Assembly: GCA_022842935.1 (NCBI GenBank)
Contig: JALHOP010000008.1
Location: 124,001-188,000, forward strand
DNA: 64,000 nucleotides
From: Myxococcota bacterium
Lineage (GTDB): Bacteria > Myxococcota > XYA12-FULL-58-9 > JALHOP01
Direction of reading: 5' to 3'
Below the pieces are notes generated by a model, which saw only the letters and a list, made by a program, of their open reading frames with translations, ran no database searches and was not told where the DNA came from. Each line of letters starts with the position of its first letter. Position 1 is the stretch's first letter. A program made the translations under genes and the position numbers. Of the stretch, positions 39,596 through 48,166 are shown piece by piece.

Positions 39596-42022
39596 CTACG
39601 GCGCGGGCCGACTCAGCCCGCTCACGTCGCCGCCCAAGTGATCGATGCTGTCGATCAAGAGCTGCGCGGTGTAGCTGAAGTTGTGCGCGTACGAGCCTGG
39701 GTCTTTGACGCTGAGCTGGTAGTTGTGCGCCGCGCGCAGGAGGTCTGCGGGCCAAGGTGAGAAGCGCGCGGTGTCCTCGCTGCCGCAAGTGCCGCTGGGG
39801 TTCGGCGGTGCCGCGTCGTTGAAGAAGTACGGATGTCGGTCTTCGTTGTAGCAAATCGAACGACTGAGAGCGGCGGCGCGGGTGCGAAGCTCGGCGAGCA
39901 AACGGGCTTGCAGGCCTTGAATCTCGCTCTTGAGCGATTCCGCGACGTTGCCGTCGCCGTCGTAGTCGGCGGTGCGCAGCGCCCCACGGATCTCGTCGGG
40001 GCCGTCGTCGTTCGAGTGGCAAACCGCGCAGCGGGTCTCCCACACATCGCTTATTGCAAACGTGTGGTTGCTCGTGACGGGGTCGTGGCACGAGGTGCAC
40101 TCGGCCCGATCACCGAGCCCTGGCGGGTGGATGAGCGGCCCCGAATAGGTCGGCCCTGTGAACTCGTAGCCGATCTTCAAGGTCGTACCGGCGCGCGTCC
40201 CGGCAGCCGGGAAATAGTGGACGTTCAGGAAGCTCGATGGGCCGCTCGGCGGCGCAGCAGCAATAGCCGCGTCAATGGTCGCCTTGGATTGTCGGCCGAT
40301 GTGGCAGTTGGCGCAGAGATTGTCATTGTTTTCGCTACCGGCATCGCCGTCGCTCGGCGTTGGATCGAACGACGTGGTGACTGCCGAGCCCGGGAGATAG
40401 ACCAGCGTGGGCACGTTCACGGCGAAGGCGCCGGCTTGGCCCTCGAGGCCAAAGGTGTCGTGACACGTGCTACATTCGAGGCCGTTGTCTTGCTCAGGCA
40501 CCGACTTGCCGACACCGAACTGCGTGAAGAAGCGAAAGCCCTCCGCGCCGCCGTGGCAACGCGAGCAGCTCGCGACCACACCCTCGGCGTTGCTGTCCCA
40601 ATTGCGAAAGGCCTGCGCCGCCCCATTGAAGTGACCCACGTCTTCGCGAACCAGGTTCGTCACGTTGGTGTCCGCTGTGAGACCATCGTTCAAGTCGACG
40701 ATGGAGTCGTGCAACAGCTGGATGACGTATTTACCGTTGTGCGCGAAGTTGCCCGGGTCAACCGCCATCATCTGGTAGTTGTATGCGGCGCGCAGCAAAC
40801 GCGGCGTCCAGCTGGCGTAGCCATTCGGGAACGTCGACTCGGAGGCGCTGCATGCACCGTCCCCGTCGCTGTCCTTGAACCAGTACGGATAGGCGGCGCC
40901 GTAACACAGGCGAGCCGAGCGTTCGCTGCCATAGCGCTGAATGGCGGCGTAGAGGATGTCCTTGAGCCCCTGAATCTCGCCGTAGATGCCCTCGGTGCGG
41001 TTGTTGTCGCCATCGTAGTCCTGATTGCGTGAGGCGATCATCCTGATGTTGCGCACGCTATCGCGGTCGGTCGCACCTTGATGGCAAGTAGCGCAGACGT
41101 CGAAGCGAACCTGCGCGGTATGCGGGTCGTGACAACCCACGCAGCTGTCGAGCCCCGGCACATGGCGGAAGCGCACGTCATAGACCTGCGTTGGATATTG
41201 GTAGCCTCCCTGGGCGACGCCAGCGTAGAGGGTGGCGGCTGCCGGGTAGTAGTGCACATTCAAGAAACCAAGATCGGGGTCGCTCTGGTCGGGATCGGTC
41301 AGGCCTTGCGCGCTAACCAGCGCGTCGACATCGGCGCCAGAGGCGCGACCCTGGTGGCACGTCATGCAGCGCGCCTCGGGGCCGAGGCCATCGACGGTCA
41401 CTCCAGAGGGGAAAGTCACGCTCGTTAGCGCCGTGGTCGCCGCGTTGTGGCAGGTCTCGCAATCGACGACCCCGCCGATGGCTGCGGGGTTGTCGACGAC
41501 ACCTGAAGGAGTGCCATCGCCCCCGAGATAGTCGAGGTAGCCCGCCGGGCTGTGGCAACGCGCGCACTCAACGGGAACGCTGCCGTCTTCGTTCCAATGG
41601 TTGAACGCTTCGCTCGTCGTGTCCGCGTGCGGCGAGGAAAGCCAAGCCTCGTAGCTTGGTACCGCGCCGAAGTCGGGCGGGCCCGCGAGCTCCGCGACGA
41701 CAACCACGACGTGACGACCGATGGCAGCGCTCTGATCGCCGACAACGCGGATGATCGCCTCACCCAGGGTCACACCGGTGACCGCTCCAGCGGCGTCGAC
41801 GGTGGCGACCTCGGGGCGCTCGCTCACCCAGCTGTAGCTCGTGTCGACCGCGTTGGCGGTCGCGGCGCTCACCTGGATGGTCGCCCCCACCACCACCGAA
41901 TTCGGGCCGGTCGTAGACACGAGAGGAGACTTCTCGCGCTCGAGGTCAGCGCAGGCCGCAAGGCAAACCGTTCCAAGCAAGACCAACCGACCGATGACGC
42001 GACATTGACTATGATTGTTCAT
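39596..42022 (-). CDS. Decaheme c-type cytochrome lipoprotein with Ig-like domain and internal duplication
   Basis: 808 aa. Lipobox CLAAC after MNNHSQCRVIGRLVLLGTV. Residues ~30-110 look like a bacterial Ig-like (BIG2) domain (SVVVGATIQVSAATANAVDTSYSW, ATVDAAGAVTGVTLGEAIIRV). Then ten CxxCH sites, five per half; the halves are clearly duplicated (FLNVHYYPAAATL / FLNVHYFPAAGTR; DYDGDNN..EIQGL / DYDGDGN..EIQGL; LLRAAYNYQMMAVDPGNFAHN / LLRAAHNYQLSVKDPGSYAHN). Probably an outer-surface electron carrier. ATG at 42022 overlaps the preceding stop (ATGA). Last gene of the cytochrome operon. Confidence 0.92.
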   Translation of the reverse strand: MNNHSQCRVIGRLVLLGTVCLAACADLEREKSPLVSTTGPNSVVVGATIQVSAATANAVDTSYSWVSERPEVATVDAAGAVTGVTLGEAIIRVVGDQSAAIGRHVVVVVAELAGPPDFGAVPSYEAWLSSPHADTTSEAFNHWNEDGSVPVECARCHSPAGYLDYLGGDGTPSGVVDNPAAIGGVVDCETCHNAATTALTSVTFPSGVTVDGLGPEARCMTCHQGRASGADVDALVSAQGLTDPDQSDPDLGFLNVHYYPAAATLYAGVAQGGYQYPTQVYDVRFRHVPGLDSCVGCHDPHTAQVRFDVCATCHQGATDRDSVRNIRMIASRNQDYDGDNNRTEGIYGEIQGLKDILYAAIQRYGSERSARLCYGAAYPYWFKDSDGDGACSASESTFPNGYASWTPRLLRAAYNYQMMAVDPGNFAHNGKYVIQLLHDSIVDLNDGLTADTNVTNLVREDVGHFNGAAQAFRNWDSNAEGVVASCSRCHGGAEGFRFFTQFGVGKSVPEQDNGLECSTCHDTFGLEGQAGAFAVNVPTLVYLPGSAVTTSFDPTPSDGDAGSENNDNLCANCHIGRQSKATIDAAIAAAPPSGPSSFLNVHYFPAAGTRAGTTLKIGYEFTGPTYSGPLIHPPGLGDRAECTSCHDPVTSNHTFAISDVWETRCAVCHSNDDGPDEIRGALRTADYDGDGNVAESLKSEIQGLQARLLAELRTRAAALSRSICYNEDRHPYFFNDAAPPNPSGTCGSEDTARFSPWPADLLRAAHNYQLSVKDPGSYAHNFSYTAQLLIDSIDHLGGDVSGLSRPAP

Positions 42023-42450
42023 GGCTGAGCGCCCCCCGCGATCCATGTGACGAGCGTTTGCAATTCAACAGAGCCTTGCGGCCAGACCGCGCCACCGCCG
42101 TGACCCCGCCCACTCGCGTTGCCGACGAGCGCGCTCCCCGCCGGGTCGCCTTCGTCGACGAAGCCAAGGGACGCTTCGTAAGCGCCATCGGCTGCGTTGG
42201 GGAAACCGAAGCTGCCGCCACCTTGACCGTTGTGACAGCGTCCACAATCGCGCTGCAGCGCTGGAAAGACATCGCTTGCAAACGACACGGTGCCGCCGTC
42301 GCTGTCGCCGACCGCATCGCTATCGCCTTGCACGTCATCGCCAGCCTGCGCCGGAGTGGGTTCGCCGCGATCGAACCCCGCGCAGCCGAGCGTGAGCACG
42401 AGCGCTACCCCAGAACCGAACGTCGCGACCCGCATTGCTCTAGAACTCAT
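42019..42450 (-). CDS. Monoheme c-type cytochrome lipoprotein
   Basis: 143 aa. Type II signal peptide (VATFGSGVALVLTLGC), an acidic linker (DDVQGDSDAVGDSDGG), then one CxxCH (DCGRCHNGQ). The fold ends in GRGHGGGAVWPQGSVELQTLVTWIAGGA, nearly the same pattern as in the heme domains of the porin fusion directly upstream (GEGHGAG...GSPELQLLRSWIASGA), so it is a paralogue of them. It overlaps both neighbours. ATG at 42450 is used; ATG at 42435 is an alternative with nearly the same signal peptide. Confidence 0.85.
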   Translation of the reverse strand: MSSRAMRVATFGSGVALVLTLGCAGFDRGEPTPAQAGDDVQGDSDAVGDSDGGTVSFASDVFPALQRDCGRCHNGQGGGSFGFPNAADGAYEASLGFVDEGDPAGSALVGNASGRGHGGGAVWPQGSVELQTLVTWIAGGAQP

Positions 42451-44608
42451 AGGCCAGGCTCACCCGCGTGAAGTCGTCGTCGACCTCGTCGGCTCGCTCG
42501 AGGTTCCAGAAGTGGAACACACCGAAGGACAACCCGTGGTACCGCGCCACGACACCGACGTTGTGCGCCGAGGCGTCCGCGACCGTCCAGCGCGTGTCAT
42601 CTTGGATGACACCGCGCCGGTTGTCGTAGTTCTGGATGCCCTGGCGGTACTGGATGAAGAGCCAGTCCACCGGGAAGTAGCGCACCATAAAGTAACTTGC
42701 GAAGTGGTAGTAGTCGCGACCCGAGCCACCGCCGGTCACGTCGGCCCGCATCGCGCCGGCGGAGAAGGTGAAGTCCTGCAAGAACGGAACTCCACGCAGC
42801 TTCCAGAGCTGAGCATCGAGGGCTTGCAACACGAGTCGTCGGTCGAAGCGCAGGTCGTTGTAGTAAACCGAGTAGTAGAGGGACGCTGGTCCGTACGAAG
42901 CGCCCAAACGATTGCCGATCGCGATCTGCGCGTCGTCGAGGGCCGCCAGATCGCTCTGCAGGTTCAGCACCGCGTCTTGCTGGCGCAGGGCGTGACCAGC
43001 CACGGCGTAGAGGTCGTGGTTGAAGGCGAACGGCCCGACGCGAGCGTAGGTCGACAGCTGGACGCCTTCGCGCGCCCAGATGATTGGCAGCATGCGTTGG
43101 TCGAACGCAGCAAGGCCGCCGTAGTTGTGGTGATAGAGCGGGTCCGAGCCGAAGGGCACCAAGAGCTTGCCAGCCTTTGCGGTGAGCCGGACTGGCCAGT
43201 GTTTGGGCGAGAGGCGGTACGCCAGCTCCCACAGTTGCAGGGTGATGAGCTCGGCGGTGAACGAAAGCGGGGAGTCCTTCTCCTGCCAGCTCAAGAACAA
43301 GAAGTTGTGATAGACCTGAATGGCGTTGCGGCCGCCCTTGAACAAAGGTTGGTCGCGATAGTCGCGGCGCTCATAGTTGAGATCGAATCGCCCATTGAGG
43401 CGAAAGCCCGCAAAGAGCGGCAGACCCGATCCGAACATCGTCCGCAGATCACCGCCGACACCGCGCATCGTCGCATGTGGATGTGGCGCGTCACCAGGCG
43501 TCGCGCTTGCTGTCGCCGCTTGCGTTCCGTCGGCCGTCACGCGCGAGGCGGCGGTCGGTTGCACCTGCGCAGCCGAGCTATCCGTCGCGCTCGGCTCCGC
43601 CACGGCGCCGCTCGCGATCCAGCTCCTCAGGAGTTGAAGCTCCGGCGAGCCATCGGACAAGATGACGCCAGCACCGTGCCCTTCCCCACGCGCCTTGGCG
43701 ACCAACGCACTCGCGTCGGGGTCTCCGGGGATGACGTTTCGACGCGCCGACGCGTAGTGCGTGAGCGGCGCGCTGTCGACGCCGTACGTCGTGGACGCGG
43801 CCATGCCGTCGGCGCCGTGGCAGCTGGCACAGCCCTGCACCAACGCTTGGTGGACAGAGGGCACGAAAAAGACCCCAGCGCTCTGAACAGCAGCGCTGCC
43901 GTCCGCCGGAGCAGACGTTTCGGCGGGGACAGGCTCGACAGGCGCCGGCGGCACTGCGGGCACTGGCGCCGCCACGCTCGCCTGCGGCACGGCCGCACTC
44001 TTGGCTTGGCCGTCCGCGATGGCGGCTTTGGCGGCGGCGTTCCCGCGACGCGCCCCCGTCTCGATCCACTTCAGAAAGAGATCATACTCAACGCTGGGAC
44101 TTGCGATCGCCTTGGCGTGTTTCTCACCCGTACCTCGCCTGAGCAACGGACTCGTTGCCGCCTTGCTCGGGTCGACTTGCGCGCGCGCCACCTCGAAGCT
44201 AGCGGCAACGTCCGCACTCAAGATCAGCTTGCTGCGACCGCCTGAGCCGCCCACTTTGTGGCAGCTCCCGCACTTCGCCATCAGGACGGGATAGACCTGC
44301 GTGTCGAAGTCTGGCCCGCGTGGCGTGGCCTTGCCGGACTGCTGCTGGGTGGGGCTCGCCGGCGCCGCCGCAGGGGTGGGCGCTGTCGCAGGAGCGGCCG
44401 CTGGCTGCTCCGTTGGCTTCTTGGGTGCCGGCTCGATTCCCACCTTCTTCTCGATCGCGCGTCGCTTCTCGGCTTCGCGCGATTCGACACCCGCCTTGCG
44501 TTCGAGCTCCTTGCGCTGATCGGCCTGCGCTGCGACCCCGCTCGCGGAAAAGAGCAGACCGAGAAGCACGAAGGCACATGCCGCGTTCGCTCGGACGTCA
44601 CGGCGCAT
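42440..44608 (-). CDS. Diheme cytochrome c fused to outer-membrane beta-barrel
   Basis: 722 aa. Signal peptide (CAFVLLGLLFSASGVAA), a charged helix then a Pro/Ala linker, heme domain 1 (CGSCH near 113-117, distal KHAKAI, closing KWIETGA), a second Pro/Ala linker, heme domain 2 (CASCH near 260-264, GHGAG, SWIASGA), and from about residue 390 a beta-barrel to the end. Barrel strands alternate and are aromatic-edged (FLFLSWQEKDSPLSFTAEL, SLYYSVYYNDLRFDRRLVL), and the last residue is Phe, as in Omp85-inserted barrels. The order cytochrome-then-barrel recalls Cyc2 of iron oxidisers, but with two hemes of a different domain type. ATG 44608 with GAGG 7 bases upstream is preferred to GTG 44620. Confidence 0.88.
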   Translation of the reverse strand: MRRDVRANAACAFVLLGLLFSASGVAAQADQRKELERKAGVESREAEKRRAIEKKVGIEPAPKKPTEQPAAAPATAPTPAAAPASPTQQQSGKATPRGPDFDTQVYPVLMAKCGSCHKVGGSGGRSKLILSADVAASFEVARAQVDPSKAATSPLLRRGTGEKHAKAIASPSVEYDLFLKWIETGARRGNAAAKAAIADGQAKSAAVPQASVAAPVPAVPPAPVEPVPAETSAPADGSAAVQSAGVFFVPSVHQALVQGCASCHGADGMAASTTYGVDSAPLTHYASARRNVIPGDPDASALVAKARGEGHGAGVILSDGSPELQLLRSWIASGAVAEPSATDSSAAQVQPTAASRVTADGTQAATASATPGDAPHPHATMRGVGGDLRTMFGSGLPLFAGFRLNGRFDLNYERRDYRDQPLFKGGRNAIQVYHNFLFLSWQEKDSPLSFTAELITLQLWELAYRLSPKHWPVRLTAKAGKLLVPFGSDPLYHHNYGGLAAFDQRMLPIIWAREGVQLSTYARVGPFAFNHDLYAVAGHALRQQDAVLNLQSDLAALDDAQIAIGNRLGASYGPASLYYSVYYNDLRFDRRLVLQALDAQLWKLRGVPFLQDFTFSAGAMRADVTGGGSGRDYYHFASYFMVRYFPVDWLFIQYRQGIQNYDNRRGVIQDDTRWTVADASAHNVGVVARYHGLSFGVFHFWNLERADEVDDDFTRVSLAYEF

Positions 44609-44927
44609 GGCACGCCTCACATGGCATCGCGCTTATGTTCGGCGCTTGGCCGCCGTCGTGGCAGGCACCGCAATAGCGGCCCTCCTTCATGGCGGCGTGC
44701 GAAAATCCCTCGAGGCGCTGAGGGAAAAGGCTCGGATGGCAGGTGTAGCAATATTGCGCGTGATGCTCCCAGTGCGAGAACATTGCAGGCTGCGGGCTCT
44801 TGCGTTCCTTCACGGGCGGGATACGCAGGTCCTGAGGCATGGAATACGCCCCGACCCAGGTGCCGACGAGGAGCAACCCAACGACAGCACCGCAACGGAG
44901 AACCAATCGTGTTGCAAAGCCAGACAT
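44598..44927 (-). CDS. Triheme c7-type cytochrome, periplasmic
   Basis: 109 aa. An uncleaved or cleaved N-terminal hydrophobic segment (LVLRCGAVVGLLLVGTWVGA) precedes a compact domain with three CxxCH (YCYTCHPS, YCGACHDG, PCEACHAP). The spacing MFSHWEHH..CYTCH..GFSHAAMKEGRYCGACHDGG is that of the c(7)-type triheme family, whose members shuttle electrons through the periplasm. ATG 44927 starts 5 bp after the small membrane-protein stop; its own 3' end overlaps the porin-fusion start. Confidence 0.9.
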   Translation of the reverse strand: MSGFATRLVLRCGAVVGLLLVGTWVGAYSMPQDLRIPPVKERKSPQPAMFSHWEHHAQYCYTCHPSLFPQRLEGFSHAAMKEGRYCGACHDGGQAPNISAMPCEACHAP

Positions 44928-44932
44928 CGGTG

Positions 44933-45130
44933 CTAGAGCGCCTTCGTCTGGCGCAAGACGCGCCAAACCGCGAAGAAGAAAAGCGCCGCGCCGGCCAGAA
45001 TGAGCCCCAGCCCAAGGCTCGCGAAGATCACAAAGGCACCAGGCGTCCAGAAAAAGGTGCAGACGAGCTGCACGAGCAAGCCAAGAAGCACCAGCATCGC
45101 AGCGACGCGAATCAGCTTGGTCGGTGTCAT
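44933..45130 (-). CDS. Small two-helix membrane protein in cytochrome operon
   Basis: 65 aa, two predicted membrane helices (VAAMLVLLGLLVQLVCTFF and GAFVIFASLGLGLILAGAALFFFAVW). ATG at 45130 overlaps the stop of the tetraheme gene (ATGA), and the next gene starts 5 bp later, so it is fully embedded in the operon. It resembles small subunits that stabilise quinol dehydrogenases, but no family was recognised. Confidence 0.8.
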   Translation of the reverse strand: MTPTKLIRVAAMLVLLGLLVQLVCTFFWTPGAFVIFASLGLGLILAGAALFFFAVWRVLRQTKAL

Positions 45131-45729
45131 GGTGGGCTCCAGAAGTTGCCAGCCTTTACGCCGGCCATGTCGTGCGCGATGTCGTGGCAACTCAGGCACG
45201 AGGTCTTGTTTTCGGTGAGCTCGGCTCGCACTGAATCGTGGGCGCCTTGCTCGAGATAGGCGCGTCCGTCTTCGTGGCAGTGCAGGCAGATGGAGTTCGG
45301 GTAGGCTTGCGCAAGCTCGATCGTCTCGGGAACGCCGCCGATGTAGTGATAGTAGACGTGACGCAGGCCGTTGAGCTTCGCCTGGATGGTCCCGAACATT
45401 GCGTAGTTGGTGTGGCAGGAGAAGCAAACCTGGTCACGACCGATCAAGCGCTTCTGGTAATGCATCGCCACAAGCGAGCGCGGGTTGTCGACGAAAAGGC
45501 TCTTCCCCCAAGGCTCCATCTCGTGACAGTCGAGGCAGAACTCGGCGTTGCTCGAGCGGACAGCGCCAGTCGTCACGCCCGTGCCCGCCACAGCGACCGG
45601 CAAGATGACGAGGCCGCCCAAGAGCACGAGGCGGCCAGCCGTGTGTTGAGCCAGTGCCTCGGCTCCGACGGCTAAAAAGACAACCAGGACTGCGGTCGCA
45701 GCGATGAGGACAACGATGACGGTCGGCAT
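45127..45729 (-). CDS. NapC/NirT-type tetraheme cytochrome, inner membrane
   Basis: 200 aa with four CxxCH (FCLDCHEME, VCFSCHTNY, ICLHCHEDG, SCLSCHDIA). The CxxCHEMEPW start and the HxxCLSCHD end are typical of the NapC/NrfH/CymA group, which oxidises menaquinol and hands electrons to periplasmic partners. It has two N-terminal membrane segments (VIVVLIAATAVLVVFLAV and LVLLGGLVILPVAVAGTGV) rather than the usual one. Lies 7 bp after the decaheme gene and overlaps the next. Likely the quinone entry point of the pathway. Confidence 0.92.
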   Translation of the reverse strand: MPTVIVVLIAATAVLVVFLAVGAEALAQHTAGRLVLLGGLVILPVAVAGTGVTTGAVRSSNAEFCLDCHEMEPWGKSLFVDNPRSLVAMHYQKRLIGRDQVCFSCHTNYAMFGTIQAKLNGLRHVYYHYIGGVPETIELAQAYPNSICLHCHEDGRAYLEQGAHDSVRAELTENKTSCLSCHDIAHDMAGVKAGNFWSPP

Positions 45730-45736
45730 CGGTTTC

Positions 45737-48166
45737 CTACAAGCCGCTGTGCGCGGTCACGGCATCGGCGGTTCGCCCAGCCCCGTGACAGACATTGCAA
45801 GTCTCGAGATTGCCTGTAGCGAGCTGGCTGCGCGGGGCGTTCACCAAAGCACCGTTGAGTCGCATGTGATTCACCGCCTGGACACCGTCGTGGCACGAAA
45901 CGCACGCCGCCGCCGCCGGGGTGGTCACGATATCGTCGCCGTTCGGCAACGAGCCACGCGCCGCGATGATGGCCGCGCGGCTATCGGGCGTGCCACTCGG
46001 CACCAGCTGAGTGCTCGCGAGCTCGCCAGGCGGAAGGTTGGTGTCGTACGAGCCGGGCATATGACAGGTCTCGCAGTTGTTGATGTCGCTCGGGTAGGTG
46101 ATCTCGCTGAAGTTGTAGCCAGTCACCGATGACCCACGCACCCGAACGAAGTCGAACACGTTATTGCGGACGCCAGCGGAGTGAATGGAGTGGATCATGT
46201 CCTTGAAGTTCTGCGGCGCTTCTGGCCAGGTCAGCGGGTTCGCGGGGTCGAGCGGGCCGCTCACCAGCGGATTGGTTGGGAGCACGCCGCTCGAGAGCGC
46301 GGCACCGATCTGTGTTTGTACCGGACCCGACACCGGAGTCGATGCCGTCCGACCGCTCGAGGTGAGATTCGGGTTGTGGCAGGTGACGCACACCTGGACC
46401 TCGTAGACCCGATTGCCGCCATGCGCTTCGAACCACTCGTGGCAGTTCGAACATTTGGCTGGGTCAGCGACGGTCCGCCGAGGCACGTCACCAGCGACCG
46501 TCTCGACGCGCGAGACCGTGTGCCTGTCGACGTTGCCCAAGAGAGGCACCCCCAGCTGGGTGAAGTAGCCCTGCAGCGATACAGTGCGCATCACAGAGCC
46601 CGGGGGAAACACGAAGTTGGTGGTCGCCGTATGAAAGCCCTCGCTGTCGGCCGCGCTCAGCGTGCCACCCGTCGGCCCCGCCACTGCGTTGCGTAGATTG
46701 GCGAGCGAAACCGTAGAGGGTTGCGACCCCGCCTGCCCCGAGCCCAAGTTGTTGTAGTCGATGGGGGCGTCAATGCCGTCTTGCGCGTTCGCCCAGGCGA
46801 GCAGGAAGCTCGGCCCGCCCGACAGGCCCAGCGTTGCCGGGTTAACGCTCAAATCAATCGCGGTCCCATTGCGCAAGATCTTGAACCGAATGACCGCCTC
46901 CCCGAGTGAGCCGACCGTCACGCTGTCGATCGCGTAGTCGATACGGTCGACGCCGGGCGGCAATGCCTCGTTGTTCTGGGTGGGATTCACCGTGCGGTGC
47001 ACGTCAACGATGCGACAGCTCTGGTTGTTCGCCGGGCCGCATGTACTGATGAGGCCCTGGACGTGGCACGTATTGCAGAGAGCGCTCGCTGGGTCGGCGG
47101 TATGGGCCGCATAGGTGGGCCCTTCGTGGCAGCCTCCGCACGAGATGACGTTGGGGGTAACCTGCCAGTTGTCGCCCTGCGGCGCCGCAGTGCTTGCCTC
47201 GTGGCACTTGTTGCAGTGCTTGAGATCTTGCGGGTACGTCGTCTCGCTGAAGTCCTCGCCGCCGAGCAGAAAGGGCGCAGCGCCGTTCGCGGCCCGAAAG
47301 CTCGCGCCGTGGATGGCGTGCGTCATGTACGACATGTCGGCCAAGGGCAGCGTCGCGCCCGGAATCGCCGTGTTGACGTTGTGACAGACAACGCAGTAGC
47401 CGGCCTCGTAACGACTGCCATGCGCGACGATGCGGCCGTGGCATTCATTGCAGCTCTTGCTCTCGATGATGTTGCGCGTCTCGGTCACGGTGCCGCCGGC
47501 GGGCACCACATCGAGAACTGCGTTGATGGCTGGCAACGTGTTGCCATTCACGGCACCGCTGATCTGCAGCACGACACGGTGTGTCCGCGTCGCCTCGAAT
47601 GGGATGAGCTCGCCGGTCACCGGATTGCGAGCGTCGGAGAGATCGGTGGCGAGCGTGTACGTATACGTGCCGTCGAGGTTGTCGGTGAGCGTCCCGGTGC
47701 GTTCGTTGGTGGCCTGCATGACCTGACCGGGGGGCGTACCCGCGGCGCGGTTCACCATGCTTTGCCAGCGGGTCGGATCGGCCGGCTCGGGTCCAGGAAC
47801 GAGCTTGGCGAGTGCAACCCGCACGTTGCCAGAAGAGCCGGCGCGCAGACCAATCGCCCCACGGCCGGCGCCGTCCGTAACTGCGAACGTGATGCTGGTC
47901 GGGGTGCCAAACGTCACTGCGCTGATCGCGGCGTTGAGCACTGAAACTCGCTCGGCCGCGAGGTTAACGGCGAGCGCCCCTGGGGGACCCGCGCTTCCAG
48001 GACCGCCTGGTTGCCCGGCGTCACCGGGCGCTCCTGAGCTACCGTCGTTACCCGCCTCACCGGGCGGGCCAGCAGGACCTTCAGGGCCGCGCTGCGGGTC
48101 ATCGTCGCAAGCACTCAGCGAAGAAAACGACAGAGCAAGAGCCGAACACAGAAGAAACCTGGCCAT
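45737..48166 (-). CDS. OmcA/MtrC-family decaheme c-type cytochrome lipoprotein with collagen-like spacer
   Basis: 809 aa. Lipobox SLSAC. Directly after it come about 13 Gly-X-Y triplets (GPEGPAGPPGEAGNDGSSG onward), a collagen-like stalk. The body has ten CxxCH: five in the first half (CNECH, CVVCH, CNKCH, CGGCH, CNTCH) and five in the second (CSNCH, CVTCH, CETCH, CVSCH, CNVCH), with beta-rich domains around each, the OmcA/MtrC pattern. Conserved IHG/IHS segments after heme 2 and 7 (MTHAIHGASF, MIHSIHSAGV) support this. ATG at 48166 starts the signal peptide. Probable terminal surface reductase; first gene of the operon. Confidence 0.93.
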   Translation of the reverse strand: MARFLLCSALALSFSSLSACDDDPQRGPEGPAGPPGEAGNDGSSGAPGDAGQPGGPGSAGPPGALAVNLAAERVSVLNAAISAVTFGTPTSITFAVTDGAGRGAIGLRAGSSGNVRVALAKLVPGPEPADPTRWQSMVNRAAGTPPGQVMQATNERTGTLTDNLDGTYTYTLATDLSDARNPVTGELIPFEATRTHRVVLQISGAVNGNTLPAINAVLDVVPAGGTVTETRNIIESKSCNECHGRIVAHGSRYEAGYCVVCHNVNTAIPGATLPLADMSYMTHAIHGASFRAANGAAPFLLGGEDFSETTYPQDLKHCNKCHEASTAAPQGDNWQVTPNVISCGGCHEGPTYAAHTADPASALCNTCHVQGLISTCGPANNQSCRIVDVHRTVNPTQNNEALPPGVDRIDYAIDSVTVGSLGEAVIRFKILRNGTAIDLSVNPATLGLSGGPSFLLAWANAQDGIDAPIDYNNLGSGQAGSQPSTVSLANLRNAVAGPTGGTLSAADSEGFHTATTNFVFPPGSVMRTVSLQGYFTQLGVPLLGNVDRHTVSRVETVAGDVPRRTVADPAKCSNCHEWFEAHGGNRVYEVQVCVTCHNPNLTSSGRTASTPVSGPVQTQIGAALSSGVLPTNPLVSGPLDPANPLTWPEAPQNFKDMIHSIHSAGVRNNVFDFVRVRGSSVTGYNFSEITYPSDINNCETCHMPGSYDTNLPPGELASTQLVPSGTPDSRAAIIAARGSLPNGDDIVTTPAAAACVSCHDGVQAVNHMRLNGALVNAPRSQLATGNLETCNVCHGAGRTADAVTAHSGL

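Follow-up and report, generated by a model that had tools for sequence, protein, structure and literature searches.

Seven genes, all on the minus strand and each starting with ATG, occupy positions 39596-48166 of the window, the 64-kb stretch of DNA that was analyzed (Table 1). Along the direction of transcription they are separated by intergenic gaps of +7, -4, +5, -11, -11, and -4 bp, and their products carry, in the same order, 10, 4, 0, 3, 2, 1, and 10 CxxCH motifs, 30 in total. Both results agree with the preliminary description of this DNA, which had reported minus-strand genes overlapping or at most 7 bp apart with 10+4+0+3+2+1+10 such sites. When the residues of each protein were shuffled (2000 times per protein), the mean number of CxxCH was 0-0.03 and the maximum 2, and only five scattered CxxCH motifs were present in the six frames of the remainder of the window. 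Three of the seven proteins contain a lipobox (LSAC, LTLGC, and LAAC). The upstream neighbours in the window, glgE and a galT-type gene, are unrelated to the haem genes. Scans for sigma-70 promoters and terminators at the locus gave scores no better than those of shuffled sequences.

Table 1. Genes of the multihaem locus in transcription order, with the evidence for each assignment.
Feature	Coordinates	Strand	Length (aa)	CxxCH	Basis
OmcA/MtrC-family decahaem lipoprotein	45737..48166	-	809	10	TIGR03507, PF22113
NapC/NirT-type tetrahaem cytochrome	45127..45729	-	200	4	PF03264
Two-hydrophobic-segment protein, no family	44933..45130	-	65	0	Hydropathy, conserved alignment
c7-type trihaem cytochrome	44598..44927	-	109	3	TIGR04257, PF14522
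Dihaem cytochrome-porin fusion	42440..44608	-	722	2	AlphaFold2 model, porin-fold matches
Monohaem lipoprotein	42019..42450	-	143	1	Lipobox, 41% identity to second porin module
Big_2-decahaem lipoprotein	39596..42022	-	808	10	PF02368, PF14522

Six-gene core and its OmcA/MtrC-type neighbour

Relatives of the locus were located by searching the genomes of the phylum with the barrel of the porin fusion, after which gene neighbourhoods were compared. Six of the seven genes (39596-45729; 20 haems) kept a common order in 17 other genomes, namely NapC/NirT-type tetrahaem cytochrome, 65-aa protein, c7 trihaem, dihaem-porin, monohaem lipoprotein, and Big_2-decahaem lipoprotein. The cluster was complete in 14 of these genomes (L022, L023, L056-L064, L071, L074, and L081) and clipped at contig ends in the other three (L024, L070, and L076). 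Start-stop overlaps were also kept across the core clusters, mostly at -4, -4, -14, -11, and -4 bp. In the phylum sample, where barrel matching used a barrel-only profile, the strong decahaem matches (E = 0) and the strong barrel matches (E < 1e-140) fell into the identical 16 genomes. The preliminary description had made its case depend on the homologues being syntenic somewhere else, which holds for the core.

Hosts were named from an alignment-based scan of contigs with only two peptide patterns (a single-sequence contig scan gave no matches); they comprise Corallococcus sicarius, C. exercitus, C. interemptor, C. carmarthensis, Corallococcus sp. AS-1-6 and CA053C, Myxococcus dinghuensis, and three MAGs. 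The distribution of the core is patchy, since none of the six other genomes searched from the order of the window genome contains it. A search of plasmids with the barrel produced no match. The genes that flank the core vary from locus to locus and include peptidases, FtsA, an ATP-grasp ligase, and a CCP/MauG peroxidase. Because they are not conserved, the core stands alone as a module, and a derivation of its function from conserved neighbours was rejected for the same reason.

The product of 45737-48166 has ten CxxCH motifs and reached 396.8 bits against TIGR03507 (cut-off 209.3), which places it in the OmcA/MtrC family; it also matched PF22113 and the solved structures of MtrF, OmcA, and MtrC. 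It has the lipobox LSAC-C and an N-terminal collagen-like stretch. An OmcA-type gene adjoining the core was absent from every other core cluster compared, and TIGR03507 matches occurred in 96 genomes (in a draw equal in size) that did not include the other 15 core genomes. Its nearest relatives found (L111, L121, and L108, with 55, 41, and 39% identity, respectively) do not lie beside a core either. Both observations would fit a chance neighbour that is functionally unlinked to the core. We consider such a chance placement unlikely, given that the OmcA-type gene lies on the same strand and ends 7 bp ahead of the NapC-type gene, a gap without space for a terminator. Collectively, the conserved unit is a self-contained six-gene module and the OmcA-type gene is a local addition to it, so that the single seven-gene, 30-haem operon proposed previously stood as regards its tight packing but not as one unit. 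In the course of these searches, OmcA/MtrC-type decahaem genes were also observed beside one NapC-like frame and others that have 11-25 CxxCH in L109, L110, and L120 (G008, G029, and G137), a cluster type which looks like a separate candidate conduit.

Predicted proteins of the core

With 44.8 bits against PF03264 (cut-off 24.1), two N-terminal hydrophobic segments, and four CxxCH motifs, the first of them CxxCHxM, the tetrahaem protein belongs to the NapC/NirT family and is the sole such match in the genome. It shares 45-60% identity among core clusters and remained under all NCBIfam equivalog cut-offs (NrfH, 42.5 of 134.2, and others); from its family only, it is presumed to be a menaquinol oxidiser. 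The 65-aa protein, which has two hydrophobic segments and no match to a known family, is always encoded between the NapC-type and trihaem genes and forms a conserved alignment with 37-55% identity. This two-helix protein is a possible partner of the NapC-type cytochrome. The trihaem protein was assigned to the c7 type by 54.0 bits against TIGR04257 (cut-off 40) and 40.1 bits against PF14522 (cut-off 24.8) together with its three CxxCH motifs, and it is presumed to act as a periplasmic carrier. The only other c7-type multihaem match of the window genome, a 250-aa frame, is located some 10 kb away from a gene for a haem-copper oxidase (G000:C1:558369-558857 and G000:C1:547384-548718 for the pair).

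The porin fusion combines a signal peptide with two haem modules, located around residues 113 and 260 and parted by Pro/Ala-rich linkers, and a barrel at about residues 400-722 which matches no Pfam family. Sequence searches of solved structures with the profiles of the barrel and of the Big_2-decahaem lipoprotein returned Ig-like or chance matches only. We modelled the protein with AlphaFold2, using the window porin fusion and ten relatives as input, and compared the barrel with known structures by Foldseek and VIA-align. The model (mean pLDDT 67, pTM 0.49) contained 16 strand elements in residues 402-721, and it aligned with OprO and OprP (Z 21.0, 294-295 residues at 4.6-4.7 A) as well as with PorB (4aui; Z 21.0, 271 residues at 3.3 A) over residues 382-722 of the fusion. 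The porin domain thus models as a 16-strand general porin fold, with the placement of the haem modules lying outside the support of the model. Two CxxCH motifs were present in every complete homologue of the fusion, and a joint alignment showed that its haem modules are related to the free monohaem lipoprotein, whose 41% identity to the second porin module (Table 1) corresponds to E 5e-12.

Relatives of the porin domain were also observed outside the core. L025 (G010:C23, 7847-9043 and 1658-7551) contains an unfused, haem-free barrel relative of about 30% identity that adjoins divergent frames with 6, 13, 30, and 5 CxxCH, perhaps an older arrangement in which this porin and the cytochromes were separate proteins. 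In addition, haem-free proteins of 458-514 aa in L027 and L028 (G004) and L030 (G054) are distant relatives of the porin domain without a Pfam family, and they point to a wider unnamed barrel family.

Met was absent from 12 of the 13 mature monohaem proteins, all of which share, besides the haem His, a single common His 44-47 residues downstream. Judging from this composition, the distal ligand of the monohaem module is most likely His (bis-His ligation), and the haem is for that reason probably of low potential. The Big_2-decahaem lipoprotein is built of two five-haem halves that cross-match each other and shares 53-59% identity among core clusters. As a whole it matched no recognised family, PF02368 and PF14522 covering parts of it; its structure model was of too low a quality for a structure search. 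Distant 12-haem relatives of this protein were observed in other contexts in L067, L068, and L069 (G078, G070, and G081), where their neighbours include further genes for 12-haem and for 6-haem proteins; these genomes, of 2.5-6.7 Mb, belong to one family, perhaps the Anaeromyxobacteraceae.

In Myxococcus xanthus lipoproteins, Lys at position +2 is an inner-membrane signal and Ala at position +7 a matrix signal (PMC3222651). The lipoproteins of the locus have neither residue, which fits a location in the outer membrane, such rules telling the membrane but not the face. The OmcA-type lipoprotein carries Asp at +2, which is ambiguous for localisation; Asp+2 is an inner-membrane signal by the rules of E. 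coli.

Comparison with known outer-membrane electron routes

To our knowledge, electrons cross the outer membrane either along a multihaem wire enclosed by a large barrel (Mtr, Pcc) or by means of the monohaem fusion Cyc2. Cyc2 and Cyt572 carry a c-type haem module N-terminal to a 16-strand porin-like barrel (PMC8406198, PMC10654088), and in published models Cyc2 comes close to phosphoporin and Cyt572 to PorB (PMC10654088, PMC8406198). Like them, the fusion described here has a signal peptide, N-terminal haem modules, a C-terminal 16-strand porin-like barrel, and a predicted place in the outer membrane. Unlike them, it has two haem modules of a different kind, it lacks the AXPXFAR[QK][TY] motif upstream of CXXCH by which Cyc2 is defined (PMC8406198), and it belongs to a fixed operon with NapC, c7, and monohaem and decahaem lipoproteins in which electron flow would probably be outward. 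As the P.FAR[QK][TY] pattern was missing in 13 of 13 barrel proteins and two haems are present instead of one, identity with Cyc2 was rejected.

The Shewanella Mtr system (CymA-MtrCAB/OmcA) resembles the locus in its NapC/NirT-type quinol cytochrome, its periplasmic carrier, and its surface decahaem, the window genome having one protein of the OmcA/MtrC family; it differs in that a small haem-fused porin takes the place of the 26-strand sheath here, with no MtrB and no MtrA in the operon. An MtrB-type barrel was rejected, since MtrB/PioB (PF11854) had no match anywhere in the window genome and the barrel is too small. A separate periplasmic decahaem of the MtrA kind was also absent among the seven genes, which bears out the earlier remark that the locus has no separate MtrA/MtrB pair. 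Because the barrel is a 16-strand porin and not a 26-strand sheath, outer-membrane crossing is not simply transferable from Mtr.

As in the Geobacter Pcc systems (OmbB-OmaB-OmcB type; PMC4245776), a porin, periplasmic cytochromes, and surface cytochromes are encoded together. In contrast to these, there is no 8-haem or 12-14-haem periplasmic partner and the small porin is fused to cytochrome modules; the only soluble-type cytochrome of the cluster that is not a lipoprotein is the trihaem, whereas Pcc is defined by a periplasmic cytochrome of at least 8 haems (PMC4245776). Genome mining also gave PCC3 and PCC4 (PMC5566968), candidate clusters in which a porin and cytochromes are encoded with an inner-membrane protein. 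Their multihaem proteins are very large, and their inner-membrane protein has five helices and HX13H motifs, where the core has a NapC-type cytochrome, a c7 trihaem, and the dihaem-porin.

A search of the open-access literature found no description of such a myxobacterial cluster, and the preliminary description likewise knew of no described system with this combination and order of genes; the supplementary cluster lists of PMC11475568 may hold the cluster uncommented. Myxococcaceae were unmentioned in those surveys of genes for Mtr, Pcc, and Fe(II) oxidation that were searched for the family name. We regard the core as a new form among extracellular electron conduits and fused cytochrome-porins.

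Candidate electron route and alternative readings

The reading that we favour, and which we hold to be rather probable, is that the six-gene core is a self-contained menaquinol-to-surface conduit whose basis is a dihaem cytochrome-porin that resembles Cyc2 but is distinct from it. Electrons would pass from menaquinol to the NapC/NirT-type cytochrome, for which the 65-aa membrane protein may be a partner, and would be ferried over the periplasm by the c7 trihaem to the two haem modules, sited at the periplasmic mouth of the porin. From there they would reach the monohaem and Big_2-decahaem lipoproteins at the outer face and finally an acceptor outside the cell, for example Fe(III), humics, or a shuttle, the OmcA/MtrC-type decahaem of the window genome serving as an extra terminal reductase. 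The preliminary description had assigned a protein to each layer of an extracellular conduit. The layers were recovered (NapC/NirT and c7 above their cut-offs, a porin-fold model, three lipoproteins, and OmcA/MtrC far above its cut-off), whereas we infer the quinol donor, the direction of flow, the surface exposure of the lipoproteins, the passage through the outer membrane, and with them the function.

Several lines of evidence argue for this conduit. The same six genes recur in 17 other genomes with order and overlaps retained, barrel and decahaem are found in the same 16, and the core stands alone. Assignments to the NapC/NirT, c7, and OmcA/MtrC families exceeded curated cut-offs, and the fold class of the modelled porin domain is also the one described for Cyc2 and Cyt572, both fused cytochrome-porins. 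The lipoproteins lack the M. xanthus Lys+2 signal, the monohaem haem is most likely bis-His and probably of low potential, and an OmcA/MtrC-type gene has joined the cluster locally. Against it stand the Asp+2 of the OmcA-type protein, the decahaem with its poor model and without a whole-length family, a porin model that supports the fold of the barrel domain but no position for the haem modules, the aerobic life ascribed to the known hosts together with the two haem-copper oxidase genes of the window genome, and above all a 16-strand porin that, as modelled, would be too narrow for a multihaem wire. Crossing is thereby left unexplained as it is for Cyc2, for which the problem of passing electrons through a small porin has already been noted (PMC8406198).

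The same narrowness, and the likeness of the barrel to general and anion-selective solute porins, would also suit an arrangement with the lipoproteins and haem modules turned towards the periplasm and a porin that admits a soluble substrate only. Electrons would then not cross the outer membrane, and the decahaem would reduce the substrate or store electrons at the inner face of that membrane. Outer-membrane lipoproteins are often inward-facing, and the sorting rules are silent on the face. We nevertheless judge this arrangement improbable, as the haem modules fused to the porin and the free paralogous lipoprotein suggest electron traffic at the pore, and a gene from a surface-reductase family, OmcA/MtrC, is joined to the operon here. 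Electron uptake, in which the fusion would oxidise Fe(II) or another donor at the pore and feed electrons inward as Cyc2 does, is suggested by the N-terminal haem modules on 16-strand porins of the iron-oxidiser proteins Cyc2 and Cyt572, but it is quite improbable in view of the Cyc2 motif in 0 of 13 sequences, two haems instead of one, the company of a NapC/NirT quinol-type cytochrome, a c7, and decahaems, the lack of a Met ligand in 12 of 13 monohaem modules, which speaks against a high potential, and the heterotrophy of the hosts.

Within the outward conduit, a more specific proposal can be made only tentatively. The core may represent a separate, as yet unnamed type of fused cytochrome-porin, in which electrons would cross the outer membrane through homologous haem modules at either mouth of the small 16-strand barrel, with two fused modules inside and one outside as a free lipoprotein. 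This would form a quinol-to-surface outlet in aerobic predatory myxobacteria. The known hosts of the core are regarded as aerobes, and we know of no report of extracellular respiration in them. The window genome contains two haem-copper oxidase genes and is therefore likely to respire oxygen. A conduit would be of use to it when oxygen is low, for disposing of electrons, or for mobilising iron.

A porin fusion with two haems, conserved and constantly accompanied by a NapC-type cytochrome, a c7, and a decahaem lipoprotein, would add a further way of crossing the outer membrane. If true, this would be notable, since oxygen-breathing predatory soil myxobacteria are not known for exporting electrons to their surface. 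As the core is present in species of Corallococcus and Myxococcus that can be cultivated, extracellular respiration can be tested directly in classical aerobic predators, and the core supplies marker genes for such respiration in soil.
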